A stretch of 64,000 nt of DNA, from NCBI GenBank assembly GCA_016938655.1, contig JAFGUG010000045.1, positions 62,001-126,000 of the forward strand, written 5' to 3'. Below the pieces are notes generated by a model. The model worked only from the letters and a program-made list of their open reading frames with translations, made no database searches and had not been told where the DNA came from. Positions 614 through 62,256 of the stretch are shown piece after piece. Each line of letters begins with the position of its first letter. The first letter of the stretch is position 1. This DNA is from Thiotrichales bacterium (lineage in GTDB: Bacteria > Pseudomonadota > Gammaproteobacteria > Thiomicrospirales > Thiomicrospiraceae). The position numbers and the translations under genes were made by a program.

Positions 614-625
614 AGCAGGCCTGCT
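614..625. repeat. Iterated palindrome AGCAGGCCTGCT, bioB-bioF gap
   Basis: Perfect 12-bp copy of the window-wide palindrome, preceded by AAAAAGTC and followed by AAGATT, so it carries the AAAGTN-type left flank. It lies between the bioB stop and the bioF start. A second half-copy (TCAGCAGG) sits at about 591-598. Confidence 0.9.
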
Positions 626-650
626 AAGATTGGGTTAAGCGTGTTTAATA

Positions 651-1676
651 TTAAGCGGTAAGCTCGGTTGCTTGTTCAGCCAGCTTTTGCGCGGCTTGTT
701 CGGCTTTTTTGTTTTGTTGCATCTGAATACCCAGTTTTTTAAATAACTGAATATCGTGATCGGACTCTGGGTTTTCGGTGGTGAGAAGTTTGTCACCATA
801 GAAAATGGAGTTGGCACCGGCAAAGAAACACAAGGCTTGCGCTTCATCTGTCAAACTCATGCGACCGGCCGACAAGCGCACATAGGTTTGTGGCATTAAA
901 ATACGCGCAGTGGCAATCACACGAATAAACTCAAAGGAATCGGTTTGATCTTTCATGTGTGCCAATGGCGTGCCTTCAATCGCAACCAATAGGTTAATCG
1001 GCACCGAATTTGGGTGCACACGCATGGTTGAGAAGGTGCGCAGCAGTTCGGCGCGGTCTTTGTGCTGTTCGCCCATGCCGATAATCCCACCCGAGCAGAC
1101 ATTGATGCCGGCTTGCTGGACCTTGTCGATGGTGTCTAAACGGTCTTGGTAGTTACGGGTGGTGATGACTTGTGGGTAGAACGCCTCAGAGGTATCTAGG
1201 TTGTGATTGTAATAATCTAATCCGACCTCTTTGAGTTGTCTCACTTGATCGTCATTCAGCATGCCTAAAGTTAAACAGGTTTCTAGGCCTAAATCCTTAA
1301 CAACGCGCACCATCTCTAACACCCGTGGAAAGTCTTTTTTGTTTGGATTACGCCACGCTGCGCCCATGCACAGGCGGGTTGCACCGCGCTCTTTGGCCAC
1401 CAATGCTTGCTCAATGACCTCTTGCACTTCCATCATCTGTTCTTTTTCAATGTCGGTGTAGTTTCGGGCACTTTGCGAGCAGTACGAACAATCTTCGGCA
1501 CAGCCACCGGACTTTATGTTTACCAGCGTGCTGGTTTGCACTTCGTTTGGATTGAAAAACTGGCGATGGACACTTTGCGCATGAAACATCAAATCGTTAA
1601 ATGGCAGATCCATAATGGCGCGGATTTCCTCTACCGTCCAGTCGTGTCTAATTTGTCCAATTTTTTCTAAGTTCAT
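651..1676 (-). CDS. bioB: Biotin synthase
   Basis: Radical-SAM enzyme that inserts sulfur into dethiobiotin, the last step of biotin synthesis. The radical-SAM cluster motif CxxxCxxC is visible in [13 protein letters not shown] near residue 60, and later family motifs include [18 protein letters not shown] and [17 protein letters not shown]. At 341 residues it is the usual length. The ATG at 1676 is preceded by GGAAAATCCT, a weak ribosome site. It is read toward bioF and is divergent from comF, with about 100 bp between the two starts. No BirA-type operator could be identified with confidence in that gap. Confidence 0.97.
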
Positions 1677-1775
1677 AGGATTTTCCAGTTTTTCTAAGGT
1701 AAAGGCGCCTTAGGTATCAAATTTTAATTGAGATATTATACTGTATTAGAACGATTCTGCGAAAAGGAGTCCACA

Positions 1776-2453
1776 ATGCACTGGTTAGAAAAATGGTTAA
1801 TCCCGCCACGTTGCGTCATCACAGGCCTGCCAACTTTGGAACGCGATTTATCCTTGGAATTGGTGAACGATTGGCCGGTACCGCAAGCCGTTTGTCCGCA
1901 ATGTTGTGAGCCAAGTGCGTTGGGTGAGGTGTGCGGAGCCTGTTTGACCCAACCCCCTGCTTTTGACCGAACCCAAGTTGGGTTCTATTTTGATAAGGAA
2001 TTGGTTGATTTAATTCATGGCCTAAAGTATCAAAATCACATTGCCTACGCTCAGCTGTTAGGTGAGTTGTTGGCGGAACGTGTCTCGCTTGAAGGGGTTG
2101 AGGCGTTAGTAGCCGTGCCGTTGTTTGCAAAACGCTTTCGTGATCGTGGTTACAATCAAGCCGAATTAATTGCCGAATCGGTCGCAAAAAGTTTGCAACT
2201 TCCCCTGATTAAACAGGCGACGCAACGCGTTAAAGAGGCACCGTCACAGACCCACTTGAGTGCAGAGCAACGCCGTAAAAATTTAAAGCAGGCGTTTGCG
2301 ATTCACGCTGAAAAGTTAGCAGGCCTGTCGCACATCGCTTTGATTGATGATGTGGTGACTACGGGTGCGACCATGCAGTCGTTAGCGGATGAAATTAAAC
2401 AACAAACAGACGTTCAAGTGGTTGAGGCGTGGGCGGTTGCCAAAACCAAATAA
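1776..2453 (+). CDS. comF: ComF family phosphoribosyltransferase-like protein
   Basis: ComF/GntX-type protein associated with natural transformation, thought to act on incoming single-stranded DNA; biochemical activity is poorly defined for the family. The phosphoribosyltransferase signature IDDVVTTGATM lies near residue 190, and the N-terminal part has the paired cysteines (CPQC, CGAC) of the family's zinc ribbon. The frame is open from 1728, but the ATG at 1776 is chosen because AAGGAG stands 6 bases before it and the product then starts MHWLEKWLIPPRC like other ComF proteins (225 residues). The gene contains two copies of the iterated palindrome core (1822, 2321), and with dprA at 55 kb it suggests a competent organism. 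Confidence 0.88.
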   Translation: MHWLEKWLIPPRCVITGLPTLERDLSLELVNDWPVPQAVCPQCCEPSALGEVCGACLTQPPAFDRTQVGFYFDKELVDLIHGLKYQNHIAYAQLLGELLAERVSLEGVEALVAVPLFAKRFRDRGYNQAELIAESVAKSLQLPLIKQATQRVKEAPSQTHLSAEQRRKNLKQAFAIHAEKLAGLSHIALIDDVVTTGATMQSLADEIKQQTDVQVVEAWAVAKTK

Positions 2454-2566
2454 CCCTCTAATTCATAAGATTTATCCAGCGCTTATTTTTTTGATTATTT
2501 AATTGTGTAAATTCGTGCTGTAATCTACGGCATATTTTTTGTTGCACGCAATCGTTAGGAGCGCAC

Positions 2567-4272: not shown

Positions 4273-6081
4273 TTAATTGTGCGCGTTTTGGCACTTAAGA
4301 ACCTGTAGATAACTTGAATAAGTGAGCGGAGCTTGTTGCAGAGCTTCGTTAAAAAGAGGGTTTCTTGTTAGGCCTTTGTCAGCCGTTGCGCACTCTAAAA
4401 TAGCGGTTGCGCTGGGTATGTCATCGTCCATCAACGCCGCTTGGCGATTTTGCCCGGGCAATAAAAAATCTTGATTGGTTTGCCAACCTACGGCGTTTAA
4501 AAATAATCTTTGCGTGGTTTGATTAAGGGTTTGCAGGCGATCGCTGGTAAGTTGGGTGTGATCAACCGTGTTTAAGTCTTGAAGGCCACGAATAATGTAA
4601 GCGTAATCTTCAAGTGTGGCCAAGCCGATGGCCGCTTTTTTGTGGTCAATGGCACGGGGAGCATTTGGGCTGTTGATGAGTTTGCTTAATTGTTCTGCGA
4701 GGGCGTTGGCTTTTTGCAAATAGAGCGGTTCTTGAGTGGCTTGATAAGCACTGGCATAAGCGGACAGCGCCAAGCCATTCCAGCTGAGAATGTGTTTACT
4801 ATCTCTGGGGATGTTGGCAACCGGTGTTTTTAAGGCGGCTTTTATTTGTGGCCAAAACTGCTTGGTTGGTAAAGGGTGCCAACCTAAGTCATAAGGTGGA
4901 ATTTGATCTAGGCGCCAAGCCTTTTTAAGGTAATTAAAGGCTTTATTAGAGAGCTTTTTTTCAAGCTGAGCTTTACTAAATAGATAATCGCCGCCTTCTG
5001 CTCCCGATAAATCCAGTGCCGATTGGCTGCTGGCAAACAGGCCTAAATCGGCATCAAATAGATGTTCTTCCATGTAGCTTAGGGTTTGTTTGCCGGTTTG
5101 AATAAAGTCTGCACGCTCAAACTTCTGACCAGCCTGAAAGTAAATTTGTGCTAACAGAGCATTGTCGTAGCCCATCTTTTCAAAATGCGGTATTTGCCAC
5201 TCTGGGTCAACCGTGTAACGATAAAAACCACCATTAACATGGTCTTGTAAGTGTTGGTTTTGCATCTGTTCAAGCGTAAAGCGTAACCACTCTTCGATAT
5301 TTTCTGGTAGTGATGTGAAAGAGAGCAGAGCGATGAGTAGCGGACTTTCAGGGAATTTACTGGTGCCTTTTAAGCCGCCGCTTAAGTCATCCAAGTTCTG
5401 TGTAAGCGCTTGTAAAAGTTGTGTTTGAAAATCAGCAGGCCTGAGTACTGAGGTCGCTTTAGGTTGCGTGGCTTTTGTTGCTTGTTGAGCAAGTGATTCA
5501 ATGTTTTGAGATTGTGTTTGCCATGATTGTTGAATATTTTTAAGGGTAGTTAGGTAGTTTTGATTTGGCAGATAGCCAAATGCCGCAAACGGATAACCTT
5601 GTGGGGTTAATACGACGTGTTGTGGCCAACCTGCACGCCCGGTAAGTTGACGAGCAAATTCAATTAAATAACGGTCTAGGTCGGGATGCAGTTCTCGGTC
5701 GAGTTTAACGGAGATAAAACCCTGGTTCATCTGTTTGGCGGCGGCCAAATCAAGGTAGTTTTCTTGTTGCATGACATGGCACCAATGACACGCAAAATAA
5801 CCACTGGAAATCAGGATGGGTTTGTTCTTTATTTGCGCCTCTTTTAAGGCGTCTTGTGACCAGTCTAACCAATTAACCGGGTCTTGAGCGTGCATCGCAA
5901 GATATGGGCTGGGGTGATTTTTAAGTGCGTTAAATGTTGGGGTATCTGTGGCGTGGCTGATTGGGGCGTAGAAAGCAAAGCAGAGGGTTATTAAGGTGAA
6001 TGAGCGGAGCGGCTTGATTGAATTTAAGCAGGCCTGTCGACGTTTAAATAGGGCGTTTAAGCTGGAAATTAAGCGTTTCAA
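4273..6081 (-). CDS. DUF255 thioredoxin-like protein (YyaL/SSP411 family), exported; start uncertain
   Basis: Member of the DUF255 family: an N-terminal thioredoxin fold followed by an alpha/alpha-barrel resembling N-acylglucosamine epimerases. The hallmarks are HPSPYLAMHAQDPVNW and the CxxC site ACHWCHVM, then HFEKMGYDNALLAQ and LSWNGLALSAYASA. A hydrophobic stretch SFTLITLCFAFYAPISHA ending in a SHA cleavage-like site indicates export to the periplasm, unusual for a family often predicted cytoplasmic. No ATG lies between the tatC stop and the signal sequence. The first plausible codon is TTG at 6081, immediately after the palindrome at 6086-6097, with no clear ribosome site. The open frame continues upstream into the tatC tail to 6354, but that part is out-of-frame low-complexity sequence. 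Two palindrome cores (5437, 6030) lie inside. Confidence 0.8.
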   Translation of the reverse strand: MKRLISSLNALFKRRQACLNSIKPLRSFTLITLCFAFYAPISHATDTPTFNALKNHPSPYLAMHAQDPVNWLDWSQDALKEAQIKNKPILISSGYFACHWCHVMQQENYLDLAAAKQMNQGFISVKLDRELHPDLDRYLIEFARQLTGRAGWPQHVVLTPQGYPFAAFGYLPNQNYLTTLKNIQQSWQTQSQNIESLAQQATKATQPKATSVLRPADFQTQLLQALTQNLDDLSGGLKGTSKFPESPLLIALLSFTSLPENIEEWLRFTLEQMQNQHLQDHVNGGFYRYTVDPEWQIPHFEKMGYDNALLAQIYFQAGQKFERADFIQTGKQTLSYMEEHLFDADLGLFASSQSALDLSGAEGGDYLFSKAQLEKKLSNKAFNYLKKAWRLDQIPPYDLGWHPLPTKQFWPQIKAALKTPVANIPRDSKHILSWNGLALSAYASAYQATQEPLYLQKANALAEQLSKLINSPNAPRAIDHKKAAIGLATLEDYAYIIRGLQDLNTVDHTQLTSDRLQTLNQTTQRLFLNAVGWQTNQDFLLPGQNRQAALMDDDIPSATAILECATADKGLTRNPLFNEALQQAPLTYSSYLQVLKCQNAHN

Positions 6082-6113
6082 AGTTAGCAGGCCTGCTAAC
6101 TTTGAAATGCTTA
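6070..6113. repeat. 44-bp near-perfect inverted repeat containing AGCAGGCCTGCT
   Basis: The iterated palindrome core at 6086-6097 is extended on both sides to arms of 22 bases with only one mismatched pair (6075/6108). It begins about 18 bp after the tatC stop on the minus strand, so as RNA it would form a long hairpin between tatC and the DUF255 gene. It is a possible terminator or processing site, although no long T-run follows. Confidence 0.85.
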
Positions 6114-6130
6114 TTGTAAAACCAAAGGAT

Positions 6131-18230: not shown

Positions 18231-20717
18231 ATGAGTTTAAATACCTGCTTTCACTGTGGTCAGGCAATTCCTGAGGGTGACTTAATACTAAAGCCAATAC
18301 AGGGTGAGCAACAAAAATTCTGTTGTCATGGCTGTGCTTCGGTTTGTGAAGTTATCTATGAAGCAGGCATGCAAAGTTTTTATCAGCGAACGCCAGACGG
18401 TGAGCTTCTATCACCGCCACCGCCTCCTAATCGGGATATTGAATTTTACGATTACGATGAGGTTCAATCACAGTTTGTGTCTGAATTATCAGACCGTCGC
18501 GAAATTACATTGATGTCAGAAGCGATTCATTGTGCAGCTTGTGTTTGGTTGATTGAACATACAATGGCAAAGATGGATGGTATTAACTTAACCGCCGTTA
18601 ATTTTACCAATAAGCAGATTAAAGTTCGCTGGGACAACAGTGTCGTAAAACTCTCCGATATTATCAAAAAACTCAACTCCATTGGTTACGACGCTACGCC
18701 TTATGATCCCTCTGCCAGTGAGCAAGCTTTCCGTAAAGCCAATCGTGACCTGCTTTATCGATTAGGGTTTGCTGGCTTTGCCATGATGAACGTGATGTGG
18801 TTCTCGATTGCACTTTACAGCGGTGCTGCTGAGGACATGGAATACCGCAGTTATTTTCATTGGCTACAGTTTATTATTGCGACCGTAACCTTAGGTTATT
18901 CAGGGATGCCTTTCTTTAAAGGCGCATGGACATCCATTAAATCTAAATCAGTGGGTATGGATGTCTCTATCAGTTTAGGTATGTTAACCACGTATGCCTA
19001 TTCAACTTGGGTCACCATGCATCCAGAGATAGTCGGTGAAGTCTATTTCGATACCTTAATCGACTTTATGTTTTTATTGCTAATTGGCCGGTACCTAGAG
19101 GCAATTTCCAAAAACAAAGCAATTGATGCCTCCAGAAGATTAATGGATCTTCAGCCAAAAGTTGCGCGCTTAATCAAAGATAATGAGCCGCAAGTCGTGC
19201 CTGTAAGAACGCTTTTAAAAGGGAATCACATTCTTGTAAAACCCGGTGATCAATTTCCAGTTGACGGACTCGTGGTTTCTGGACAGAGCATGGTGAACGA
19301 GTCTATGCTTAGTGGTGAATCTAGAGAGATTACCAAACACGAAGGGGATTCTGTATCGGCAGGAACCATTAATGTAGATGGCACATTAACGATTGAAGTA
19401 AAAGCGATTCTTCAAGACACCAAGCTCGGTAAGATTGTTAACTTGGTTGAAGAGGCACAAGGTTCAAAAGCCCCTATCCAATGTACCGCTGATAAAATTA
19501 TGCCATGGTTTGTCACCGTTACGATTACGTTAGCCGTTGCGAGTTTTGTGTACTGGTTTTTTAATGCGGGAATCGAGTTCGCCATTATGACCGGAACGGC
19601 AGTGCTTATCATTACCTGCCCATGTGCATTTGGCTTAGCGACTCCAATGGCCATTGCGGTGGCCTCTGGCGTTTCAGCAAGGCATGGCATTTTGGTTAAA
19701 AACGGCGCTGTACTAGAGACGCTTAATGAAGTAGAACATTTTGTGTTTGATAAAACGGGTACCTTAACAAAAGGCCAAATGAAGGTTGTAGATTCAAAGT
19801 GGGTTGACGGTCTGGATGAACAGCAAGCTTTACTGGAAGTGGCCAGTTTAGAGAGCAAGTCTGAACACAGTTTAGGCGTTGCCGTAACAGAGTCAGTTAA
19901 AACGCAATATGGTTTAACAGCCAAAAACTGGCTAGAAGTTAGTCAATTTAAAGCGCAACCAGGTAAAGGTATTTCTGGAGAGTTGGCAGGCCTGCCAATG
20001 TTAATTGGAACTGCAAAATGGTTAGAAGAACAAAATGTTGAGCTGCCAGAGAGTATGAAGGCCATCGCCGAAGAGCACGCACAGCTTGCTCAGACTGCAA
20101 TTTGGGTGGCTAAAAACAAACAAGTTCAAGGCGTGTTGTTCTTAGAAGATGAGATTCGTCCAGAGGCGAAGATTTTGATTAGCCGCTTAAAAGCCAAAGG
20201 CAAACAAGTGACGCTGTTAAGTGGTGACCAAACGGTGGTAGCGAATCAGGTTGCCCAACGTTTGGGTGGTATGCAGGTAATTGCAGAAGTTCTGCCAGAA
20301 GATAAAAATCAAGTCATTCGCGATTTGCAAAGTCAGGGGCAGCAAGTGGCTATGATTGGTGACGGTGTGAATGATGCCCCTGCATTGGTGCGTGCGAATG
20401 TTGGTATTGCCCTGGGTTCGGGAACCGATGTATCTATGGACAGCGCAGACATTGTTTTAATCAACGATAATATTATTGCTGTCGATACCGCAGTAGAATT
20501 GTCTGCACGTACGTTACGTACGGTTAAGCAAAATATCGCCAGCTCTATTGCCTACAACATGATTATGGTGCCACTGGCGATGTCGGGGATGTTAACTCCT
20601 TTAATTGCCGCTATAACCATGCCATTAAGCAGTTTAGTGGTCATTGGTAATGCCGCAAGAATTCGTAACTTCTTCAGCGAAAAAGCCATGGCCAAACGTT
20701 CAAGAGAGATAAAGTAA
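18231..20717 (+). CDS. ccoI: Copper-transporting P-type ATPase CcoI (FixI)
   Basis: P1B-type ATPase that exports copper for the CuB site of cbb3 oxidase. It has an N-terminal cysteine cluster (CFHCGQ, CCHGCASVC), a heavy-metal-associated domain with AIHCAACVWLIE near residue 100, the transmembrane TCPCAFGLATP motif, the phosphorylation site DKTGTLTKG and the hinge GDGVNDAPAL. At 828 residues with about 8 helices it is full length. An iterated-palindrome copy (TTGGCAGGCCTGCCAA, 19983-19998) encodes ELAGLPML; it is the first copy after a 14-kb gap. The gene overlaps ccoS by 1 bp. Confidence 0.96.
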   Translation: MSLNTCFHCGQAIPEGDLILKPIQGEQQKFCCHGCASVCEVIYEAGMQSFYQRTPDGELLSPPPPPNRDIEFYDYDEVQSQFVSELSDRREITLMSEAIHCAACVWLIEHTMAKMDGINLTAVNFTNKQIKVRWDNSVVKLSDIIKKLNSIGYDATPYDPSASEQAFRKANRDLLYRLGFAGFAMMNVMWFSIALYSGAAEDMEYRSYFHWLQFIIATVTLGYSGMPFFKGAWTSIKSKSVGMDVSISLGMLTTYAYSTWVTMHPEIVGEVYFDTLIDFMFLLLIGRYLEAISKNKAIDASRRLMDLQPKVARLIKDNEPQVVPVRTLLKGNHILVKPGDQFPVDGLVVSGQSMVNESMLSGESREITKHEGDSVSAGTINVDGTLTIEVKAILQDTKLGKIVNLVEEAQGSKAPIQCTADKIMPWFVTVTITLAVASFVYWFFNAGIEFAIMTGTAVLIITCPCAFGLATPMAIAVASGVSARHGILVKNGAVLETLNEVEHFVFDKTGTLTKGQMKVVDSKWVDGLDEQQALLEVASLESKSEHSLGVAVTESVKTQYGLTAKNWLEVSQFKAQPGKGISGELAGLPMLIGTAKWLEEQNVELPESMKAIAEEHAQLAQTAIWVAKNKQVQGVLFLEDEIRPEAKILISRLKAKGKQVTLLSGDQTVVANQVAQRLGGMQVIAEVLPEDKNQVIRDLQSQGQQVAMIGDGVNDAPALVRANVGIALGSGTDVSMDSADIVLINDNIIAVDTAVELSARTLRTVKQNIASSIAYNMIMVPLAMSGMLTPLIAAITMPLSSLVVIGNAARIRNFFSEKAMAKRSREIK

Positions 20718-43713: not shown

Positions 43714-44628
43714 TTAAGGCGTTTTGTGACCCCGATAACTCAAGAACGAAACCCCACCCACGACCAATAACATGCCGGTTGCATGCCAGGCGGTAAAGGG
43801 TTCATTTAGAATCCAGATGGCTAAGCCCATAGTCATAATAGGGCCAAGTGAGCCGACAATGCCGGTTTGCGCAGGGCCAATTCGATGAATCGCCTCGCTG
43901 ATCATAAAGCTTGGGATGACGGTGCTGAATATCGCTAACAGTGCTAGCCAAAGCCACGCCATTGAGGTGACGTTTAAATCGGTGAAGTGGTTAAAGATTG
44001 AGAAGTGAATCAGTACAAAAATACTTGAGATACTCATTGCTAAGCCGGTAAACCAAACGCTCCCCATACTTTGAATCTCTTTTTTACCAAACAGCACATA
44101 AAACGAAAATGACAGCGCGGCGAGTGCAACCAGTAGAGTTCCAAGAATAACGTTATCGCCTTCCAGTGACAGTTCTTTGTAAAACACAATCCACAGGCCT
44201 GCGTAAGTGATAATCAGCGAGAAGAGGGTTTTACGGGTAAGCGGGGTTTTAAAGAACAGCGCACCGAGTAATGCCACCATAATCGGATAGGTGAATAGGG
44301 TTAAGCGCTCCAGTTGCGCACTAATCAGCTCTAGGCCTTTCAAGTCAAACCACGACGACAGGTAGTACCCAATAAAACCTAAAAAGGTGATTTTTAGCCA
44401 TTTTGACGATAGGTTTTCTGGGGTGGTTTTTTGTTTAGCCAGCCAGACAAGAACCGCTAAATAAATGGGCAGAGCAATGGCCATGCGTAGCATTAAAACG
44501 CTGTCGGTATCCAGCCCTTCGGCGTAGGCAAGTTTGATGAAAATGGATTTTAGTGAGAACAGTCCTGTGCCAATAATGGCAAGTAGCAAACCAATGTTAA
44601 ACGCCGACAATGGGAGTCTGTTAATCAT
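43714..44628 (-). CDS. EamA/DMT-superfamily permease
   Basis: Second DMT-type ten-helix permease (304 residues), only distantly like the one at 41313. IIGTGLFSLKSIFIKLAYAEG and GIVGSLGPIMTMGLAIWILNE are typical EamA segments. The ATG at 44628 overlaps the methyltransferase stop (ATGA), so the two are coupled. A palindrome core at 44194 encodes YAGLWIV. Confidence 0.86.
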   Translation of the reverse strand: MINRLPLSAFNIGLLLAIIGTGLFSLKSIFIKLAYAEGLDTDSVLMLRMAIALPIYLAVLVWLAKQKTTPENLSSKWLKITFLGFIGYYLSSWFDLKGLELISAQLERLTLFTYPIMVALLGALFFKTPLTRKTLFSLIITYAGLWIVFYKELSLEGDNVILGTLLVALAALSFSFYVLFGKKEIQSMGSVWFTGLAMSISSIFVLIHFSIFNHFTDLNVTSMAWLWLALLAIFSTVIPSFMISEAIHRIGPAQTGIVGSLGPIMTMGLAIWILNEPFTAWHATGMLLVVGGVSFLSYRGHKTP

Positions 44629-45257: not shown

Positions 45258-46709
45258 CTATTTGCGCCAGAATGCGGCGGTAAACAACACCAGTAAGGTG
45301 AAGATTTCTAAACGCCCCAATAACATGGCAAACGCCAGTACCCACTTAACCGGGTCACTCATGGTTTCGTAGTTAGAGGCAACGTCACCCAACCCTGGCC
45401 CCAGATTATTCATCATGGCGGCAATCGCTGAGAAAGCGGTGAGTTCATCGACGCCCAAGGCCATGATAATCAGCATTAAAACGGCAAAGGTAAAGGCGTA
45501 AACAGAGAAAAACCCCCATACAGCGGTCATGACTTTTTCTGGAATGGGTTTGCCATTGAGCTTAACCGGCATAATGGCGTTTGGGTGAAGTAGACCACGA
45601 ATTTCGCGTGAACCTTGTTTGAAAAGCAGGACAAAACGAATCATTTTCATCCCACCGGCGGTGGAGCCGGCACTGCCGCCGATAAAACTCATCATGATCA
45701 GCAAAATAGGAATAAACGCTGGCCAAACTGAGAAGTCGGCATTAGCAAACCCCGTGGTGGTGGCCAGCGATACGGTTTGGAAAATACCGTAACGGAACGA
45801 CTCTTGCCAAGTTGGGTAGACTTGATTGAAGTACAAGTAAGTCGTCACCACCAGAATCCCAAGCAGCAATAAGCTGGCGTAGGCTTTAAATTCTGGGTCT
45901 CTAAAGTACGGAAACACCGTAAAATTTCTGAAAGCGGTAAAGTGCAACGCGAAGTTAATACCGGATAAAAACATAAAGAAGATGGCAACGCTTTCTATGG
46001 CAATGCTATCAAAATAGCCAATACTGGCATCATGGGTCGAGAAGCCACCAATCGCCACGGTTGAGAAGCTGTGTCCAAACGCATCAAACCAGTTCATACC
46101 CGCTAACCAATACCCGATGGCGCAGGCGACCGTTAAGCCTAAATACAGGTACCAAAGGGTTTTGGCCGTCTCAGAGATACGCGGTGCAATTTTAGAGTCT
46201 TTAACTGGGCCAGGGGTTTCAGCACGATACAGCTGCATGCCTCCAATACCGAGCATAGGCAGAATAGCGACCGCTAAAACGATGATACCCATACCACCTA
46301 ACCACTGTAACTGCTGGCGATACCAAAGAATGGCGTGCGGCATATTGTCCAAGCCACTCATGACCGTGGCACCGGTAGTGGTTAAACCAGAGAAGGATTC
46401 AAATACCGAGTCGGTGAGTGTTAAGGGGGCTTGCGGCTCGAAATAGAAAGGCAGAGCGCCCACCAATCCAAGAACCGTCCAGAAGAGGACAACGACTAAA
46501 AAACCATCACGAATTTTGAGGTCTTGTTTGTGGTTACGAATCGGATACCAAAGTAGCAGGCCTGCAACTAATACGCCAATCATGACGATAATAAAACTGC
46601 TGGTCGCACCATCTTGGTAGTAAAGAGAAATTAAAATCGGCGGAACTAGGCTAATGCTGTAGACCATTAATAAAATGCCGATAACTTTGGTGATGATTTT
46701 TGAATGCAT
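45258..46709 (-). CDS. trkH: Trk potassium uptake system membrane protein
   Basis: Potassium channel-like subunit with four pore repeats. Selectivity-filter regions include SGLTTTGATVMSG near residue 110, TVAIGGFSTHDASIG near residue 218, SLATTTGFANADF near residue 315 and NNLGPGLGDV near residue 432. It has 483 residues. It lies 21 bp after trkA and forms the Trk system with it. A palindrome copy at 46555 encodes VAGLLLW. Confidence 0.95.
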   Translation of the reverse strand: MHSKIITKVIGILLMVYSISLVPPILISLYYQDGATSSFIIVMIGVLVAGLLLWYPIRNHKQDLKIRDGFLVVVLFWTVLGLVGALPFYFEPQAPLTLTDSVFESFSGLTTTGATVMSGLDNMPHAILWYRQQLQWLGGMGIIVLAVAILPMLGIGGMQLYRAETPGPVKDSKIAPRISETAKTLWYLYLGLTVACAIGYWLAGMNWFDAFGHSFSTVAIGGFSTHDASIGYFDSIAIESVAIFFMFLSGINFALHFTAFRNFTVFPYFRDPEFKAYASLLLLGILVVTTYLYFNQVYPTWQESFRYGIFQTVSLATTTGFANADFSVWPAFIPILLIMMSFIGGSAGSTAGGMKMIRFVLLFKQGSREIRGLLHPNAIMPVKLNGKPIPEKVMTAVWGFFSVYAFTFAVLMLIIMALGVDELTAFSAIAAMMNNLGPGLGDVASNYETMSDPVKWVLAFAMLLGRLEIFTLLVLFTAAFWRK

Positions 46710-48206: not shown

Positions 48207-49556
48207 TTAAACCGGGTTTTTCGGGTCGATGTCTAAGGTTTTGAGTTTGCGATACAGGTTGGTTCGGTCGACACCAGAGCGTTTGGCTGTTTCCGATACA
48301 TTGCCTCCGGTCTCTCTTAACAGTTGGCTTAAATAGGCTTTTTCATATTGGTCTTTAGCCTGTTTTAAGTTGATTGAGGTGTCAACGCCGGTATTGCTGG
48401 TTTCAGTGTGCGTGGGTTGCACCAGAGCCGATTTTACTTCACTGTCGGTGATGTCGCCGGTGCCTAAAATCAGTAGCTTTTGGATCAGGTTTTCCAGTTC
48501 GCGTAAATTACCTGGCCAGCTGTATTGGCGTAAAATGTTTTGAGCTGAAACACTGAAATGGCGGTAGTTCAAACCGTCGTGAGAAACCAGGTGGTTGATG
48601 AAGTATTCAATGAGCTCCGGAATATCTTCACTGTGTTGGCGTAAAGCGGGGATCTGAATCGGCATCACTTGCAGGCGTTGTAACAGGTCATCCCGGAATT
48701 GTCCGCTGTGCGCAAGCTCTTCTAAACTGTGTTTACTGAGGACAATTATACGAATGTCTAATTGAACGGTATTTTGAATGGTCTGGCACTCAAAGCACTG
48801 CTTGTTGAGCAAGTTGGCTAATATCTTTTGGCTCAATTCGTTTAGGTTATTGGCGTTGGTTAAGACTAAGGTGCCACCATCAATGGCCCGCAGTTGGGTC
48901 AGTAAATCTTGATTTTCGTTTACAAGGGAATTTTCAGCCAAGGTATTAAAATCGTTGGCGTACAAAACCAGCAGGCCTGCCTCTTTTCGGTCACTGGTTT
49001 TGTGCAGGGCTTTGGCAAAGTGTTTTTTACCACTGCCTGTTTCACCGGTGACCAGAATGGGCATGCTGTATTTGGCAAGGCGCTCAATGGTTTCACGCAG
49101 GGCCATAATTAATTTACTTTTACCAATCGGCAATATCTGTTCGGGCAAGGTCTGTTTAAGTTGGCGATTCTCTTGATTCAGGCGCGTATGCTGTAAGGCG
49201 CGTTCTGCAATGACAATCAGTTTTGCCAAAGAGAGGGGTTTTTCTAGAAAATCGTAAGCGCCGAGTTTGGTGGCTTCAATGGCGGTTTCAATGGTGCCAT
49301 GTCCAGACATCATGACAATACTAGTTTGCTGTAGGATAGGGTCGGTTTGCATCTCTTTAAGCAATGAAATACCGTCAATATCAGGCATCCACACGTCTAA
49401 AAATATAACTTCCGGGACTTGGGTGCGCCAGGCCTCTTTGGCTTGTGTGCCATTGGCAGCCGTGGAGGTAATATAGCCCTCCTCATCAAAAATTTCTTGC
49501 ATCAAGCTTCGGATGTCTTTTTCATCATCCACGATTAAGATTTTGCCTGGTTTCAT
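48207..49556 (-). CDS. ntrX: NtrX-like response regulator with degenerate AAA+ domain
   Basis: Response regulator partner of the overlapping NtrY kinase. The receiver domain (residues 1-120) has the acidic pair DDEKD and the phospho-acceptor in FLDVWMPDIDG. The central AAA+ domain keeps a Walker A (GETGSGKKHFAKALH) but Walker B reads GGTLVLTNANNL in place of GGTLFLDEI, so the Asp-Glu pair is absent, and the GAFTGA loop that contacts sigma-54 is missing, with the segment about 20 residues shorter than usual. RDDLLQRLQVMPIQIPALRQ remains. The C-terminus is a Fis-type helix-turn-helix (SGVDRTNLYRKLKTL). It probably regulates without sigma-54 or ATP hydrolysis. A palindrome copy at 48970 encodes EAGLLVLY. 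Confidence 0.9.
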   Translation of the reverse strand: MKPGKILIVDDEKDIRSLMQEIFDEEGYITSTAANGTQAKEAWRTQVPEVIFLDVWMPDIDGISLLKEMQTDPILQQTSIVMMSGHGTIETAIEATKLGAYDFLEKPLSLAKLIVIAERALQHTRLNQENRQLKQTLPEQILPIGKSKLIMALRETIERLAKYSMPILVTGETGSGKKHFAKALHKTSDRKEAGLLVLYANDFNTLAENSLVNENQDLLTQLRAIDGGTLVLTNANNLNELSQKILANLLNKQCFECQTIQNTVQLDIRIIVLSKHSLEELAHSGQFRDDLLQRLQVMPIQIPALRQHSEDIPELIEYFINHLVSHDGLNYRHFSVSAQNILRQYSWPGNLRELENLIQKLLILGTGDITDSEVKSALVQPTHTETSNTGVDTSINLKQAKDQYEKAYLSQLLRETGGNVSETAKRSGVDRTNLYRKLKTLDIDPKNPV

Positions 49557-51742: not shown

Positions 51743-52389
51743 AACCAACTCTTGGGCGTGTAAATGCGGGTTTCAAACCAGCCACTGTTTAAATTCCAAT
51801 CGGAATCCAGTAACGAATTTAACACGAGCGGCGCAGGCAAGCGCCAACGATTTAAGTTTATGTTGAGCTTGAGGGTATATTTTTGGGCTGGGTGCAACTC
51901 AGAGAGCCCTAAAATCGGAAAGGCCGATAGGGTTCCGAGGGTTTTAAGGGCTTCATCCAGTGAGCTAAAGCTCTGAACTTTGTTGTTGCGTTCATTCACT
52001 AAGGTGTAACGACCACTAAAGTCCGAGTAGTGCAGTTGTGTGTTGTAGGACACATGCATGCGCTCTCGTCGATACTTAATGCCAGCGAATCGCTGGTGCT
52101 CTTGAAATACGATCTCCGTTTTAAAAGTTAAGGTTATCTCATTGTAAATGGCTTCAATGACCGCTTTAGGCAGATGAAATTGAACTTGAGAGTCAAACAG
52201 GAGCTGTTGATCTTCTTGATAGTCGGTCATCTGAATAATACGAATTTGATCAGATGCGAAGGTAAATGCGCTTTGAAAAGTGAGCAGGCCTGCTAACAAT
52301 AGGCGTAAAACTTGGGTGTTGAGTTGTGTAAAAAGCCGACACACCGAATTAAAGCAGGCTTGGATAAATCGAGTTTTAGCCAGCCCCAT
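51739..52389 (-). CDS. DUF4390 exported protein
   Basis: Periplasmic protein of about 216 residues often found between rsmB and ntrY in gammaproteobacteria. The signal sequence LLLAGLLTFQSAFTFASDQ, then a beta-rich domain with LLFDSQVQFHLPKAVIEAI and RERMHVSYNTQLHYSDFSGRY, matches that family. The ATG at 52389 lies 4 bp beyond the rsmB stop; the open frame extends upstream into rsmB but has no better start. A perfect palindrome (52283-52294) encodes LLAGLL in the signal peptide. Function unknown; a role as an envelope input to NtrYX is a guess from context. Confidence 0.86.
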   Translation of the reverse strand: MGLAKTRFIQACFNSVCRLFTQLNTQVLRLLLAGLLTFQSAFTFASDQIRIIQMTDYQEDQQLLFDSQVQFHLPKAVIEAIYNEITLTFKTEIVFQEHQRFAGIKYRRERMHVSYNTQLHYSDFSGRYTLVNERNNKVQSFSSLDEALKTLGTLSAFPILGLSELHPAQKYTLKLNINLNRWRLPAPLVLNSLLDSDWNLNSGWFETRIYTPKSWL

Positions 52390-53719: not shown

Positions 53720-54666
53720 TAAAATTGGTGTCCTTCAAGCTTTCTGGATTGGGCAAAGTCGTAAGCGGCCATTGGTTTTTTTCCGGCAGGCTGTACTTGC
53801 GTTAGCCAAATAGAGTCACTGCCCGTAGTGATTAACATACCTTGCTTGCTAACGTTTAACACCAGGCCTGCTGATTTTTCAGAAGATTGGTTTTCAGGTT
53901 CTTGGGCAATATGGGCTTTTAAAATGCGCAGTGGTTGATCTTGATAAGTTGTAAAGGCGACTGGCCATGGGTTAAACGCTTGAATTTTACGCACAATGGT
54001 GTGTGCGGGTTGTGACCAGTTAATCTCTGCTTCGGCCTTGTGCATTTTTTCAGCGTAGGTGACTAAGCTTTCATCTTGTTTTTCAGGGATAAGCTGGTTG
54101 GTTTGCAGTTGCGCTAGGGTTTCTATAAGCGCCTCGCACCCCAACATGCTCAAGCGGTCGTGCAATGTTTGCGCAGTGTCGTCTGTTTGAATGGGAGTGG
54201 TTTTTTTAATCAGCATGTCACCGGTATCTAACCCAATATCCATCTGCATAATGGTCACGCCCGTTTCAGCATCGCCGGATTCAATGGCGCGCTGAATCGG
54301 GGCAGCACCACGCCAACGCGGCAGTAACGAGGCGTGAATGTTTAAACAGCCAAATTTAGGCATGTCCAGTACCACTTTTGGCAAAATCAGACCGTACGCG
54401 ACCACAATCATTAGGTCGGAATTCAATGCAGCTAACTCGTTTTGAGCGGTTTCATCACGCAGCGTTTCAGGTTGATAAACCGGAATATTGTGTTCAAGTG
54501 CTAAGTTTTTTACTGGGGTTGCGGTAAGTTTGCGGCCGCGACCAGCAGGGCGGTCGGGTTGGGTGTAAACCGCAATCACGTTGTGCTCAGAATTTAGTAG
54601 GGCTTGCAAGGGGGCCACTGAAAATTCGGGCGTACCAGCAAAAATGATGTTTAAAGGTTGGGTCAT
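53719..54666 (-). CDS. fmt: Methionyl-tRNA formyltransferase
   Basis: Formylates initiator Met-tRNA. IIFAGTPEFSVAPLQALL at the start, the catalytic SLLPRWRGAAPIQRAIESGD with Asn-His-Asp residues (CLNIHASLLP, GVTIMQMDIGLDTGDML) and the C-terminal RNA-binding domain are present. The ATG at 54666 is chosen over an upstream in-frame GTG since it begins at the conserved MTQPLNIIF (315 residues). It is between def and rsmB. A palindrome core at 53863 encodes SAGLVLN. Confidence 0.97.
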   Translation of the reverse strand: MTQPLNIIFAGTPEFSVAPLQALLNSEHNVIAVYTQPDRPAGRGRKLTATPVKNLALEHNIPVYQPETLRDETAQNELAALNSDLMIVVAYGLILPKVVLDMPKFGCLNIHASLLPRWRGAAPIQRAIESGDAETGVTIMQMDIGLDTGDMLIKKTTPIQTDDTAQTLHDRLSMLGCEALIETLAQLQTNQLIPEKQDESLVTYAEKMHKAEAEINWSQPAHTIVRKIQAFNPWPVAFTTYQDQPLRILKAHIAQEPENQSSEKSAGLVLNVSKQGMLITTGSDSIWLTQVQPAGKKPMAAYDFAQSRKLEGHQF

Positions 54667-57578: not shown

Positions 57579-60131
57579 ATGACAAATTTGGTAATAGTGG
57601 AGTCTCCTGCAAAGGCGAAGACCATAGAGAAATATCTGGGTAGTGGGTTTACTGTTCGTTCAAGTTACGGACATATTCGAGACATTCAGAAAAAAGGCAT
57701 GGGCATCGACTTAGAAAATGGATTTATTCCAAGTTATGAAATTTCAGCTGACAAACGCAAGAATGTCACCGAGCTGCGAAAGCTCGCCAAGGCCTCTGAA
57801 ACGGTCTGGCTCGCAACCGATGAGGACCGCGAAGGGGAAGCCATTGCTTGGCACTTAGCGGAAGCCTTAAAGTTAGACATTAATGAAACCAAACGCATTG
57901 TGTTTCATGAAATTACCAAACCCGCTATTCAAAAAGCGATTGCCGAACCACGCAGAGTGGATATGGATTTGGTTGAAGCGCAACAAGCCCGCCGTATTCT
58001 TGACCGTATTGTGGGCTTTGAGCTGTCACCTATTTTGTGGAAAAAAATTCGCACAGGCCTGTCAGCAGGTCGCGTTCAATCGGTGGCGGTACGATTAATT
58101 GTTGAGCGTGAGCGCGAAGTTGAAAGTTTCGAATCTACGTCGGTGTTTCGAGTACAAGGCACGCTTAATTTACTGGATGAAAGCGGCAAAGAAGTCGGCG
58201 TGTTAGACGTTAAACGTACCGCGGCATTTGATTCTGAAGCCGAGGCCTCAACGTTTTTGGAAGCTGTATCAAAAGCCAATTTAAGTGTGTTGTCTTTAGA
58301 AGAGAAGCCGGCAAAACGTTCACCAAAAGCACCGTTTACCACCTCCACGCTCCAGCAAGAAGCGTCCTCTAAATTAGGTTTCTCGGTAAAACAAACCATG
58401 ATGGTTGCACAACGCTTATATGAGTCTGGAAAGATTACTTATATGCGTACCGACTCGGTGAATTTGTCTGAACTGGCGATTGAACAAGCCAAAGAGGTCA
58501 TTACCGCTGACTTTGGTTCAAAGTACTCAAACCCAAAACGTTACAAAACCAAAAATGCCGATGCGCAAGAGGCGCACGAAGCGATTCGCCCGACTGATTT
58601 CAATATGAAAACAGTGGACGGTGAACGCAACGAACAGCGTTTATATCAACTTATTTGGCGCAGAACCATGGCTTCGCAGATGAGCGATGCACAATTAAAG
58701 CGGACGACTGTGGATATCGGCATCGACCTGTTACCGGGTGATAAATTCACGGCTAAAGGCGAAGTCATTGTGTTTGACGGTTTCTTAAAAGCCTACGATT
58801 TAGACGACAAAAACGAAGACGGCTTGTTGCCTCCAATGAAAGTTGGGCAAGCTTTGAGTGTCGCAGAAATTGTCGGGCGTGAGAGCTTTAGTCGTGCACC
58901 AGCGCGTTATAACGAAGCCAGCTTGGTGCGTACCCTAGAGGAGATGGGGATTGGCCGTCCATCGACCTATGCACCCACCATTGATACTGTTCAGCAGCGT
59001 GGTTACGTGGTGAAAGAGGATCGTGAAGGTAAAGAACGTCAGTATCGCCAAATTACTTTAAATGCCCAAGAAATGGTGGCAGAAACGCTGACAGAGATGG
59101 CGGGTACGGAGAAGAATAAACTGTTTCCAACCGACATTGCCGGCATCGTCAATGACTTTTTAGTAAAGCATTTTGGTGAGGTATTAGATTTTCAATTCAC
59201 CGCTAAAGTGGAAGATAAGTTTGACACGATTGCGAAAGGCAATATTCAGTGGCAAGTGATGTTAGAAGAGTTTTACTCGCAATTTCATCCCAAGGTGGTT
59301 GCCGCTGAAGATGTGTCTCGCGAAGAGGCTGGCCAAGCACGTTTATTGGGGGCGCACCCTAAAAATGGCAAGCCAATGTTTGTTAAGATCGGTCGTTTTG
59401 GTCCTTATGTTCAATTGGGTGACGGTGAGAATGACGAAAAGCCAACCTTTGCCAGTTTAATGCCGGGTCAAAAGATGGATCTACTTACCTTAGACCAAGC
59501 ATTAGAACTGTTTAAATTGCCACGTGAAGTCGGTGAAATGCCTGAAGCCTATCATGCAAAAGCGGTTGATGGTTCGGAGTTTGGTGTTGAGAAAGGGCAA
59601 AAAATTATTGCCAAACAAGGACCGTTTGGTCCTTACTTAGAGTACGGCGAGAAGATGTATGCGCCGATTAAAGGTTATGACCCACTTAGCATTGAGTTAG
59701 AAGATGCCATTATTTTAATTGAAGCTAAAATTCAGGCGGATGCCGATAAAATTGTCAGAACCTTCCCGGGGACGGATGTCAAAATCTTAAAAGGACGTTG
59801 GGGACCCTATATTACCGATGTCACCACCAAGAAAAATGCCAAGATTGCGAAAGATGAAGATCCGTTAGCTTTGTCATTTGAAGAGTGTGAAAAACGGTTA
59901 GAAGAAGCGCCTGAGCCTAAAAAACGTGGGCGTGCGGCGACCAAAAAAGCACCTGCTAAGACAGCGGTAGCTAAAAAGCCCGCTGCCAAGAAGGCGCCAG
60001 TTAAGAAGCCAGCGGTAAAAAAGACACCGGCAAAAAAACCGGCCGCTAGGAAAGCACCGGCTAAAAAGCCAGCCACCAAAAAGACGGTTGCTAAAAAAAC
60101 AGCTTCAAAGCCAACTTCACCTGAAGAGTAA
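57579..60131 (+). CDS. topA: DNA topoisomerase I with H1-like basic tail
   Basis: Type IA topoisomerase that relaxes negative supercoils. TOPRIM motifs (IVESPAKAKTIEKYLG, TDEDREGEAIAWHL) and the catalytic Tyr in KITYMRTDSVNLS near residue 288 are intact. In place of the Cys4 zinc fingers usual in gammaproteobacterial TopA it has basic repeats (FVKIGRFGPYVQLGDG, AKQGPFGPYLEYGE, LKGRWGPYITDV), and the last 60 residues are Lys/Ala/Pro repeats (KKAPAKKPAAKK-like) resembling histone H1. Length 850. A palindrome ACAGGCCTGT (58053-58062) encodes RTGLSAGR. Confidence 0.95.
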   Translation: MTNLVIVESPAKAKTIEKYLGSGFTVRSSYGHIRDIQKKGMGIDLENGFIPSYEISADKRKNVTELRKLAKASETVWLATDEDREGEAIAWHLAEALKLDINETKRIVFHEITKPAIQKAIAEPRRVDMDLVEAQQARRILDRIVGFELSPILWKKIRTGLSAGRVQSVAVRLIVEREREVESFESTSVFRVQGTLNLLDESGKEVGVLDVKRTAAFDSEAEASTFLEAVSKANLSVLSLEEKPAKRSPKAPFTTSTLQQEASSKLGFSVKQTMMVAQRLYESGKITYMRTDSVNLSELAIEQAKEVITADFGSKYSNPKRYKTKNADAQEAHEAIRPTDFNMKTVDGERNEQRLYQLIWRRTMASQMSDAQLKRTTVDIGIDLLPGDKFTAKGEVIVFDGFLKAYDLDDKNEDGLLPPMKVGQALSVAEIVGRESFSRAPARYNEASLVRTLEEMGIGRPSTYAPTIDTVQQRGYVVKEDREGKERQYRQITLNAQEMVAETLTEMAGTEKNKLFPTDIAGIVNDFLVKHFGEVLDFQFTAKVEDKFDTIAKGNIQWQVMLEEFYSQFHPKVVAAEDVSREEAGQARLLGAHPKNGKPMFVKIGRFGPYVQLGDGENDEKPTFASLMPGQKMDLLTLDQALELFKLPREVGEMPEAYHAKAVDGSEFGVEKGQKIIAKQGPFGPYLEYGEKMYAPIKGYDPLSIELEDAIILIEAKIQADADKIVRTFPGTDVKILKGRWGPYITDVTTKKNAKIAKDEDPLALSFEECEKRLEEAPEPKKRGRAATKKAPAKTAVAKKPAAKKAPVKKPAVKKTPAKKPAARKAPAKKPATKKTVAKKTASKPTSPEE

Positions 60132-60185: not shown

Positions 60186-60215
60186 TTGAAAGTCAGCAGG
60201 CCTGCTGATTTTCAA
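60186..60215. repeat. Extended iterated palindrome after topA
   Basis: The perfect core (60195-60206) is flanked by TTGAAAGTC and GATTTTCAA, giving a 30-bp inverted repeat with one G-T position. It precedes a separate strong terminator by 18 bp. Confidence 0.9.
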
Positions 60216-60232
60216 AATGGCCCGACGCTTAA

Positions 60233-60266
60233 AGCCAGATACACACGGTTGTATCTGGCTTTTTTT
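60233..60266 (+). terminator. Rho-independent terminator after topA
   Basis: AGCCAGATACA pairs perfectly with TGTATCTGGCT around CACGGT and runs into seven T residues. Confidence 0.92.
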
Positions 60267-60308
60267 GTTTCGACTTACCTAGGCTAGAACGGTAAAAGAG
60301 TGAGTGTG

Positions 60309-61865
60309 TTAGGCAGCAACACTCTGTTTGGTTGCCTTTTGTTGGCTGGAAACGTAAAAGCAAAACTGCCCTTTTCCTGCATTTTTTGCTGCATACATGG
60401 CGGTGTCGGCGGCTTTTAGGAGGGTGTACCGGTCGTTTGCTTGCAGTGGAAACTGAGCGATGCCAATACTCGAACTGATTTCAATGGCATGATGATTTAT
60501 CTCAAAGGGGGTCGCCAGTTGCTTGGTGATTTGTTGGGCTAATTCGTGCGCTTGGTTCTCATCCGCCGATTGTGGGTAGTAAAGCACAAACTCGTCACCA
60601 CCGACTCTGGCAAGTAAGGCTTCTTCACCTAACAGTGCGCGGATTCTCTGCCCCACCGCGTGCAGCAGTAAATCACCGGTATCGTGCCCTAGCGTGTCAT
60701 TGACGGATTTGAAGTTATCTAAATCCAGAAACATTAAGGTAATGGAATGACCGCTTTTGAGGCTTTTTTCCAGGGAGTGGTAGAGGCGGTGTCGGTTTGC
60801 TAACCCCGTGACACTGTCGACATTTGCTAAATTATCTAATGCGGCCTGTGTTTGTTTTAGATCGGTTATATCGGTGTGAATAAAGCTGTAGTGCAGGCTT
60901 TGCGTGGTTTCGTGAAAGATTTTTTGCAGGCTGACTCGGCTGGCTTGTCTAAGTTCTCCTTGCGCATTATTTAAGCTCAACTCTCCACGCCAACGCCCCT
61001 CTTGGTGTAATGCGGTCAGTATCTCGCTATCTGGGATAGATTGCAGGCTTGTGAGTAGACTTGGTAGGTTGGTTATTTGCGTTGGCGTCGAAAGTTGATT
61101 GAGTGTGGCTTTTAAACCTTCATTGCAACGCGTTATGTTCATATTTGAATCAAAGATGGCAATGCCCTCTGAAGCGTGTTCAATAATGGTGGCATCGACT
61201 TCTAATTCGGCCTCAATCCATTTTTGTTCGCTCACATCGAGGCGAATCGCACACAGTTTATCTATCTCACCGCTGTCCGTATAAAACACTTGCCCTTTAT
61301 CGTGTACCCAAAGATAACGGCCATCTTCGTGCAGAATGCGATGTGTGCATTCAAAAAACGGCTGTTCGCCGCCTAATATTTTAAAAAAGGTCTGTTGCAC
61401 CGCCTCTTTATCTTTAGGGTGGATACGGTTTTGTAAATCGTGCAGATTGCCTAATGGAGCGTCACTGGGTAAGCCAACCATTTTTTTCCACTGAGCCGAG
61501 AACTGCGCAGTATTGTTTTTAATGTGCCACTCCCAGTAAGCAAATTGTTCATTGCCCATTAAGGTTTGTATTTGATGGGTCTCTTTTTGGTGCTGTTGCT
61601 TTAGCTGCTTGATGGTTTGTTTATAACTTTGAGCCTGATGTTGAAGGATGCTATCGGAGCGTTGGTTGCGAAAAGCCGTGAATAGCGATAGCCCAGCCAA
61701 GCTAAGCAGTGTCATCATCATGAGTTGTTCAGCGTTGATGATAGGGCTGCCGAACGATGCTAAGAGGGATTGCAGACTTTGAGGATTCCAAAGAGTGCTG
61801 GCAACGATTAACCAGAGAATGATTAGCACAAAGGGTTTGGTTAGGATAAAAAGAGAAGGGTTCAT
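60309..61865 (-). CDS. Membrane-bound PAS-GGDEF diguanylate cyclase
   Basis: Likely makes cyclic di-GMP. Two N-terminal helices (residues about 8-24 and 42-58) are followed by a coiled-coil-like Gln-rich stretch, two PAS regions (YWEWHIKNNTAQFSAQW near residue 107 and a second near residue 230), and a GGDEF domain with LARVGGDEFVLYYPQ near residue 425, where the active GGDEF is intact. No EAL domain follows. The ATG at 61865 (MNPSLFILTKPF, 518 residues) is preferred; the frame is open to 62009 but the added part is not membrane-topology-consistent. Confidence 0.9.
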   Translation of the reverse strand: MNPSLFILTKPFVLIILWLIVASTLWNPQSLQSLLASFGSPIINAEQLMMMTLLSLAGLSLFTAFRNQRSDSILQHQAQSYKQTIKQLKQQHQKETHQIQTLMGNEQFAYWEWHIKNNTAQFSAQWKKMVGLPSDAPLGNLHDLQNRIHPKDKEAVQQTFFKILGGEQPFFECTHRILHEDGRYLWVHDKGQVFYTDSGEIDKLCAIRLDVSEQKWIEAELEVDATIIEHASEGIAIFDSNMNITRCNEGLKATLNQLSTPTQITNLPSLLTSLQSIPDSEILTALHQEGRWRGELSLNNAQGELRQASRVSLQKIFHETTQSLHYSFIHTDITDLKQTQAALDNLANVDSVTGLANRHRLYHSLEKSLKSGHSITLMFLDLDNFKSVNDTLGHDTGDLLLHAVGQRIRALLGEEALLARVGGDEFVLYYPQSADENQAHELAQQITKQLATPFEINHHAIEISSSIGIAQFPLQANDRYTLLKAADTAMYAAKNAGKGQFCFYVSSQQKATKQSVAA

Positions 61866-62256
61866 TGGGATCAAATTAAGTATTAAAACGAACCTAATTA
61901 TAGCGTCACATTTTTTGAAAACTAATGGATTAAAACTAGCCGTGCATAAGAAAAACTTGGGATAAACACCGCAGATGACGCCTCCTATTTTTGCTGAATT
62001 TAATGACATGACTGATTTTCAAATGCTACGTCCAGTCATTGAATCATGCTCTGGTGCTTAGCCTCTTTTGTTCGCGGTTTTAGCAGGCCTGCTGACTTTG
62101 AATACGTTAAAATCCTAAAAAAACTCATAACAGACGAATCCATTTTCCATCTGCTGCGGTATTTTAGTAAAATACTCGTTTTACTTTTTCGGCTTAACTT
62201 GATCCGAGTGAGCCTGGTATCGTTTTTTCGATGTCACTGATTTAAGAGAGAACCCC
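61866..62256. other. 390-bp divergent intergenic region between the GGDEF gene and argS
   Basis: Should hold the leftward promoter of the GGDEF gene and the rightward argS promoter. It contains one perfect iterated palindrome (62082-62093) and short AT-rich tracts. No other gene or clear operator was found. Confidence 0.6.
62082..62093. repeat. Iterated palindrome upstream of argS
   Basis: Perfect AGCAGGCCTGCT with right flank GACTTTGA, the extended form; 164 bp before the argS start. Confidence 0.9.

Follow-up and report, generated by a model that had tools for sequence, protein, structure and literature searches.

The palindromic octamer CAGGCCTG and its 12-base extension AGCAGGCCTGCT are highly repeated in a 64,000-nucleotide stretch of a Thiotrichales bacterium genome (contig JAFGUG010000045.1, positions 62,001 to 126,000; below, the window). 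The motif is a trait of the Thiomicrospira-Hydrogenovibrio-Thiomicrorhabdus family, with dialects that differ both between genera and within a genus. In the best reading, these words would form a new lineage of uptake-signal-like sequences, similar to the DNA uptake sequences (DUS) of Neisseria and the uptake signal sequences (USS) of Haemophilus but partly palindromic. An uptake-like role is proposed because, taken together, the features resemble those of DUS and USS: words typical of the family, present in hundreds of copies and in dialects, a core accompanied by an A/T-tract, and a place at gene ends, either as one palindrome or as an inverted pair. To these we add codons bent towards the word. 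We lean slightly towards the view that the words are uptake-signal-like sequences of this family that are spread by biased uptake and recombination. The source organism is Thiomicrorhabdus-like: the topA product encoded in the window shares up to 85% identity with named Thiomicrorhabdus records and is grouped among them on the topA tree.

Abundance, structure and placement of the repeated word

All 27 copies of CAGGCCTG listed for the window in the earlier note are present, at most one base from where they had been placed, and so are all eight copies of AGCAGGCCTGCT. One hundred dinucleotide shuffles of the window produced 0.65 octamers on average (largest 3); for the 12-mer the shuffle mean was 0.01 and the largest value 1. 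The excess holds against Markov models and extends beyond the window. A 344-kb sample of the same genome (the window and 14 stretches of 20 kb, L083-L096) contains 167 octamers against 4.0, 4.2 and 13.4 expected at orders 2, 3 and 4, and the 2.93-Mb genome contains 411 copies of AGCAGGCCTGCT and 596 of GCAGGCCTGC, the reversed controls of both being absent. Extrapolation from the sample gives about 1,400 octamers per genome. This is by far the commonest palindromic octamer of the sample, the runner-up TTTTAAAA occurring 63 times. The earlier note knew of no described element with this core; the literature searched, partly among the matches listed, gave no report of one, and the motif is not mentioned in the passages of PMC6501319 (Hydrogenovibrio) that were examined.

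The density of copies is uneven. None occurs in the window between 6.1 and 20.0 kb, and one 20-kb stretch (L091, C3:160001-180000) contains a single copy. Ruler-like even spacing was not seen, the coefficient of variation of 165 gaps being 1.08, and apart from these deserts the spacing is random-like. L091 carries carboxysome and RuBisCO genes (Pfam); it was suspected of being a genomic island, and this was dropped, the carboxysome and RuBisCO genes lying there. The motif-poor stretches (window 6097-19986 and L091) hold core genes, by reading including his and cco-type genes. Perhaps codon choice is constrained there by high expression, or the stretches were acquired recently.

The motif had been described as a palindrome of eight or 12 bases. 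The copies are there, but the unit is longer, and palindromy is not essential to it, as non-palindromic relatives exist. The core is centred on GGCC and flanked, about one helical turn away, by A/T-tracts at fixed spacing (AAAnTnAGCAGG and CCTGCTnAnTTT). With strands pooled, the symmetric extension beyond the eight core bases has G at -1 (72%), A at -2 (74%) and T at -4 (67%), and an A-tract covers -8 to -6 (A 62-66% in the own genome; 80-88% in intergenic copies and 50-53% in coding ones). Little sequence is conserved farther than about 12 bases on either side of the core. Scored against six consensus positions, at least one flank reaches five or six in 62 of the 67 intergenic copies and in 49 of the 100 coding ones; 0.8% of random single flanks score as high. 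The centre of the core is nearly invariant: against 167 perfect copies there are eight that differ at one of the two central bases and 28 that differ in the next pair. Lone half-sites are not enriched: 83 of 88 occurrences of AAANTNAGCAGG in the own genome continue with CCTG.

Both flanks are under constraint, and the two are little coupled to each other. In the 66 intergenic copies, bases facing each other about the centre can pair more often than in shuffles at -3 (26 vs 17.1, p=0.0065). The excess is nominal at -8 (p=0.026) and -9 (p=0.033), and the other nine of the 12 flank positions tested show none at p<0.05. Since the excess is limited to few positions, the symmetry is mostly a property of each DNA half, and some intergenic copies also look hairpin-like. 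One possibility is that the motif binds, through two half-sites, a dimeric protein that organises the nucleoid or chromosome, or a global regulator. The near two-fold symmetry, the constraint on both flanks with little coupling, and the tracts one helical turn from the centre, suggestive of bending, agree with such a site. However, the rarity of lone half-sites means that a single half is not the unit in the own genome, the motif deserts are long, the non-palindromic dialects described below carry the tract on one side, and hundreds of sites change together between species of one genus. We consider this explanation unlikely.

The 166 classified copies divide into 100 coding and 66 intergenic ones in a sample that is itself 86% coding; gene calls were simple longest open reading frames (ORFs), and a few "coding" copies (e.g. 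6029, 6088) may be intergenic. In ORFs of at least 120 amino acids there are 98 copies, whereas 200 synonymous shuffles gave a mean of 8.8 and a maximum of 17. Thus the codons are bent towards the word, and selection or drive acts on them. One reading phase is shared by 67 of the 100 coding copies. Spread of a small mobile palindrome, similar to repetitive extragenic palindromic (REP) sequences or miniature inverted-repeat transposable elements, would account for a palindromic and often intergenic word. It is extremely improbable, given the share of copies in coding DNA, their common phase and the lack of conservation beyond the flanks.

Copies are concentrated between convergent genes, where 21 of the 39 gaps hold one; among tandem genes 26 of 137 gaps do, and among divergent genes seven of 35. 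Such a preference is what would be expected if the copies were mainly intrinsic transcription terminators. The same is true of the pairing excess in intergenic copies and of the RNA fold, which was better than in most shuffles for three of the five window copies folded (z-scores in Table 1). On the other hand, the other two folded copies are weak, most flank positions show no excess of pairing, and the many coding copies oppose termination as the sole role. As a main function it is improbable; a terminator role could be secondary, as for DUS.

The region 3' of topA contains a dialect word within 330 bp in eight of 30 loci (the window counted; two of the 30 lack sequence past the stop). The spellings differ by species: the own genome has its 12-mer, and T. 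cannonii has an inverted pair of its own form. Downstream of T. marina topA (L038, from 12479) there is a hairpin-like inverted repeat built on ACCGGCC/GGCCGGT, similar to the dialect half of genome G023. Dialect words were found at 11 of 43 orthologous ends for window genes that have a copy within 200 bp of the stop, and at two of 131 otherwise; the ends compared are not independent of one another, and among the 11 a CCGGCCGG that lies in GC-rich sequence may be due to chance. For the gene at 52394-53719, six of 26 orthologous ends have a dialect word no more than 200 bp from the stop codon.

Dialects in related genomes

Counts in related genera, proposed in the earlier note as a check, revealed hundreds of copies in many relatives, spelled differently. 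The word CCAGGCCTGG occurs 106-856 times in 27 of 62 family genomes and 44 times in the own genome, and its reversed control at most twice. Samples of 80 kb contained 45 copies of CCGGCCGG and 38 of ACCGGCCGGT in G023, and 34 copies of CAGGCCTG in G025, where the commonest palindromic 10-mer is ACAGGCCTGT (10 copies). Other relatives have non-palindromic words. AAACTSAACAGGCCGGG is found in G020 (148+166 = 314 copies on the two strands) and G004 (80+83 = 163), with five copies in G058, one in G005 and none in the other 56 of 60 genomes. AAATCTRCCAGGTTGGG is found in G064 (120+153 = 273) and G068 (153+177 = 330), with four copies in G063, one in G020 and, again, none in the other 56. The tract is retained in this series: counting from the C of CAGG/CCGG, positions -8 to -6 are most often A in all five dialects profiled (own, G020, G023, G025 and G064), at 50-100% per position. 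On the topA tree, where dialects rest on 4-22 kb per locus, T. cannonii (L009) with its non-palindromic form is nested among records with palindromic forms. The sequence CCAGGGGTGG, seen in the flanks of CAGGGGTG matches and present four times in 22 kb of locus L017, is possibly a further dialect.

Contig C1 of G020, with 66 copies listed, contains six plus/minus inverted pairs spaced 23-33 bp apart, against 0.65 expected. The strands are mixed without blocks over 660 kb (35 plus and 31 minus copies; 43 runs vs 33.9 expected). This bears on polar signals of recombination or segregation, such as Chi or the FtsK-orienting polar sequences, which are likewise short, abundant, taxon-specific words present in coding DNA. 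Nevertheless, a palindrome cannot be polar, and the non-palindromic dialect of G020 shows no strand order; such a function is very improbable.

Restriction to the family is shown for one dialect, ACCAGGCCTGGT, which has at most five copies in each of 271 genomes of the class outside the family (58 with any; 274 class genomes counted), 38 in the own genome and 181 in G035. For GCAGGCCTGC, up to 41 copies (reversed control 14) were found among 21 genomes outside the family. Samples of 60-100 kb from G003, G012, G013, G024, G026 and G031 showed no conspicuous iterated word. The word lists of G019 and G064 were dominated by other repeats, and several draft genomes were sampled at less than 10 kb. 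Strong local repeats in L102 and L110-L112 (G019), L121 (G063), and L122 and L155-L158 (G064) are perhaps CRISPR arrays or repetitive genes; AGGCAGCTAAG occurs 96 times in 80 kb of G019.

A different pattern was seen in topA loci of Thiomicrorhabdus metagenome-assembled genomes that lack CAGGCCTG (L011-L013, L015) and in pieces of G001, G016 and G029. Runs of seven to 12 G, mostly preceded by A and followed by AAAAWTTTT, occur 62 times in these 114 kb. Their density is 0.42-0.80 per kb in L011, L012, L013, L126, L129 and L130 and 0.24 in L015; five 20-kb control pieces have zero or one each. By location, 24 are sense, 28 antisense and 10 intergenic (120-amino-acid ORF cut-off). Judging from this sample, the G-runs may be yet another dialect, one in which the tract lies on the opposite side of the core. 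Some of them are ordinary conservation, e.g. a run of seven G in one gene at the same place in four loci, and the T. arctica locus (L036), grouped with the G-run genomes on the tree, has fewer than three such runs in 22 kb. Long coding G-runs would be slippery, and phase variation is another thought.

Methylation, uptake and known signals

The best-known alternative to uptake is a DNA methyltransferase that modifies the core, with methylation-guided repair making and preserving the copies, as proposed for the highly iterated palindrome HIP1 (GCGATCGC) of cyanobacteria. The earlier note had likened the motif to HIP1 and to uptake sequences, and the abundance and dialects are indeed as in both. 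In passages of PMC4390886, HIP is GC-rich, palindromic and iterated, has palindromic extensions and gives way to other palindromes in some lineages; the words studied here are similar to HIP1 and the alternate HIPs in these respects. GGCC is common to the palindromic dialects. The own genome has four matches to PF00145 and two to PF01555, and 19 of the 33 motif-rich genomes match one or both families. A genome counts as motif-rich if a 10-mer or 17-mer occurs in it at least 100 times; G023 and G025 were added because of their density in samples, and G006 (106 copies of CCAGGCCTGG), which lay outside the genomes covered by the methyltransferase searches, was left out.

However, the methylation alternative raised in the earlier note is weakened, since the other 14 of these 33 genomes match neither family (E <= 1e-3; two of the 14 are less than 90% complete; other methyltransferase families were not searched). 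Dialect CCAGGTTGGG lacks GGCC. The constraint, with its A-tract, reaches eight bases out, and usual methyltransferase sites are shorter. Further, the GGCC-centred core is neither HIP1 nor a GATC-based palindrome, and the relatives include non-palindromic words, unlike HIP. According to the same passages of PMC4390886, HIP extensions consist of one to three GC or T/A bases, with no A/T-tracts at a distance, and every abundant HIP has a candidate methyltransferase, whereas PF00145 and PF01555 do not follow the motif here. Overall, a HIP-type site is unlikely.

The features of uptake signals are seen here: a species-typical word, hundreds of copies, dialects, coding and intergenic locations including gene ends, and, in G020, inverted pairs. 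Comparison with DUS forms revealed no DUS 12-mer with a CTG core: the CAGGCCTG dialects contain CTG without that 12-mer, and ACCGGCCGGT lacks CTG. Similarly, the consensus differs from USS cores of both the AAGTGCGGT type and the ACAAGCGGT type. Passages of PMC1852404 give GCCGTCTGAA as a DUS form and AAGTGCGGT as a USS form, and report that both signals are frequent in terminators. The Neisseriaceae DUS, as described in part of PMC3630211, have eight dialects with a common short inner core, coding and intergenic copies, and inverted pairs tied to terminators. The words studied here share with them abundance, species-typical spelling, dialects, an inner core, location in both kinds of DNA and inverted pairs. 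Unlike DUS, they have another sequence, a mostly palindromic core and an A/T-tract within the signal, and the ComP family was not found. The USS of H. influenzae consists of an inner core and AT-tracts, with 1,465 nine-base cores or 2,206 sites by motif search (passages of PMC7811141), and the Pasteurellaceae have Hin and Apl dialects (passages of PMC12616744). The AT-tracts near an inner core, the dialects and the terminator use make a likeness of plan, not membership. Indeed, USS is non-palindromic, its inner core is GCGG rather than CAGG/CCGG, and the dialects here are more numerous.

If the words are uptake signals, a GC-rich inner core with an A/T-tract about 10 bp from its centre would mark self DNA. 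A surface receptor of the type IV pilus or competence machinery would prefer DNA with the local dialect, and preferred uptake followed by recombination would spread and maintain hundreds of copies. A change in the taste of the receptor would then make the whole genome drift to a new dialect, such coordinated drift following from the way the copies spread. It can be argued that a drive process would rewrite hundreds of sites in concert more readily than changes made one at a time. In many species, the source organism included, the palindromic core would let a single copy read alike both ways and serve as a terminator hairpin as well. Some relatives would follow the core-and-tract plan without a palindrome, their copies often standing in facing inverted pairs. 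A bolder version, which falls a little short of an even chance, is that free-living sulfur-oxidising chemoautotrophs have independently evolved one more uptake code for self DNA, with six or more spellings, perfect palindromes and non-palindromes among them, perhaps a G-run version, and one core-plus-A/T-tract plan throughout. The Pasteurellaceae and Neisseriaceae are both host-associated. They are the two bacterial families for which abundant uptake sequences have been described, according to passages of PMC7811141.

Several observations weigh against uptake. ComEC (PF03772) was found in 56 of 60 genomes, with or without the detected motif, and was not found in the motif-bearing draft genome G004. 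It is present in five of the six sampled genomes without the detected motif, and the occurrence of comF and dprA in the window, from which the earlier note had suggested DNA uptake, is accordingly weak support, although uptake remains the role that the present comparisons appear to support best. ComP_DUS (PF16732) exceeded the cut-off in none of the 60 genomes and also in none of 14 controls, so the sensitivity of this search is unproven; GspH/FimT (PF12019) matched in three of the 60, none with the detected motif. Clusters of prepilin genes are present in genomes that have the motif and in genomes that do not, and no prepilin family follows it; the 49 extracted prepilins fell into a single cluster because of their shared N-terminus, and orthologues were not separated. 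Thus no receptor emerged from the ComP_DUS, GspH/FimT and prepilin searches; PpdA/ComN, the predicted receptor for USS, was not searched with its own model. Copies are scarce in the carboxysome/RuBisCO and cco/his regions, that is, in core genes. No paper on transformation in these bacteria was among the matches listed, and published USS are not palindromic in the passages of PMC12616744.

If the bolder version is true, such a signal is able to switch from palindromic to non-palindromic spellings, or back, without losing the core-plus-A/T-tract plan. A further family of uptake sequences, in environmental autotrophs with many sequenced species, would provide a natural series of dialect changes, suitable for testing receptor-genome coevolution and whether biased uptake alone rewrites hundreds of sites. 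If the words do not serve uptake, an abundant, fast-changing, family-specific genome mark still wants explanation.

Copies in the window

The positions of all copies are given in Table 1. The names comF, metH, his, cco and P-type ATPase for window ORFs were read from translations with no family search; dprA and comF are names used in the earlier note, and topA is named from protein identity to database records.

Table 1. Copies of the octamer and the 12-mer in the window, with their surroundings; flank scores are out of six consensus positions
Element	Position	Location	Flanks and RNA fold
12-mer AGCAGGCCTGCT	614..625	intergenic	A-tract at either side, 6/6 and 5/6
CAGGCCTG	1822..1829	inside ORF 1728-2453 (comF-like by reading)	
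CAGGCCTG	2320..2327	inside ORF 1728-2453	left flank strong, 6/6
CAGGCCTG	5436..5443	inside ORF 4273-6354	left flank strong, 6/6
CAGGCCTG	6029..6036	within long TTG-start version of ORF 4273-6354; may be intergenic	
12-mer AGCAGGCCTGCT	6086..6097	34 bp past stop of ORF 6131-7324	6/6 both sides; 14-bp RNA hairpin, z -5.65
CAGGCCTG	19987..19994	inside ORF 18231-20717 (P-type ATPase-like by reading)	
12-mer AGCAGGCCTGCT	21021..21032	intergenic	6/6 both sides; RNA fold z -2.12
CAGGCCTG	22867..22874	no ORF of at least 150 amino acids over it; not classed intergenic (short ORF)	
12-mer AGCAGGCCTGCT	26060..26071	touches last stop-codon base of ORF 26071-26610 (-)	6/6 both sides; RNA hairpin not strong, z -0.97
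CAGGCCTG	26185..26192	inside ORF 26071-26610	
12-mer AGCAGGCCTGCT	28146..28157	inside ORF 27347-28246	
CAGGCCTG	30254..30261	inside ORF 29305-33162 (metH-like by reading)	
CAGGCCTG	32179..32186	inside ORF 29305-33162 (metH-like by reading)	
CAGGCCTG	36181..36188	end of ORF 35430-36194	
CAGGCCTG	37192..37199	inside ORF 36994-38262	
CAGGCCTG	39264..39271	inside ORF 38363-39385	
CAGGCCTG	40115..40122	inside ORF 39481-40332	
CAGGCCTG	42259..42266	intergenic	
CAGGCCTG	44194..44201	inside ORF 43714-44649	
CAGGCCTG	46557..46564	inside ORF 45258-46709	
CAGGCCTG	48972..48979	inside ORF 48207-49556	
12-mer AGCAGGCCTGCT	52283..52294	about 100 bp 3' of 52394-53719 gene	
CAGGCCTG	53863..53870	inside ORF 53719-54687	
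CAGGCCTG	58054..58061	inside ORF 57579-60131 (topA)	weak, 2 and 0 of 6
12-mer AGCAGGCCTGCT	60195..60206	3' of topA	6/6 both sides; RNA fold z -2.42
12-mer AGCAGGCCTGCT	62082..62093	intergenic	RNA hairpin not strong, z +1.08

The copy inside topA is possibly a chance codon match.

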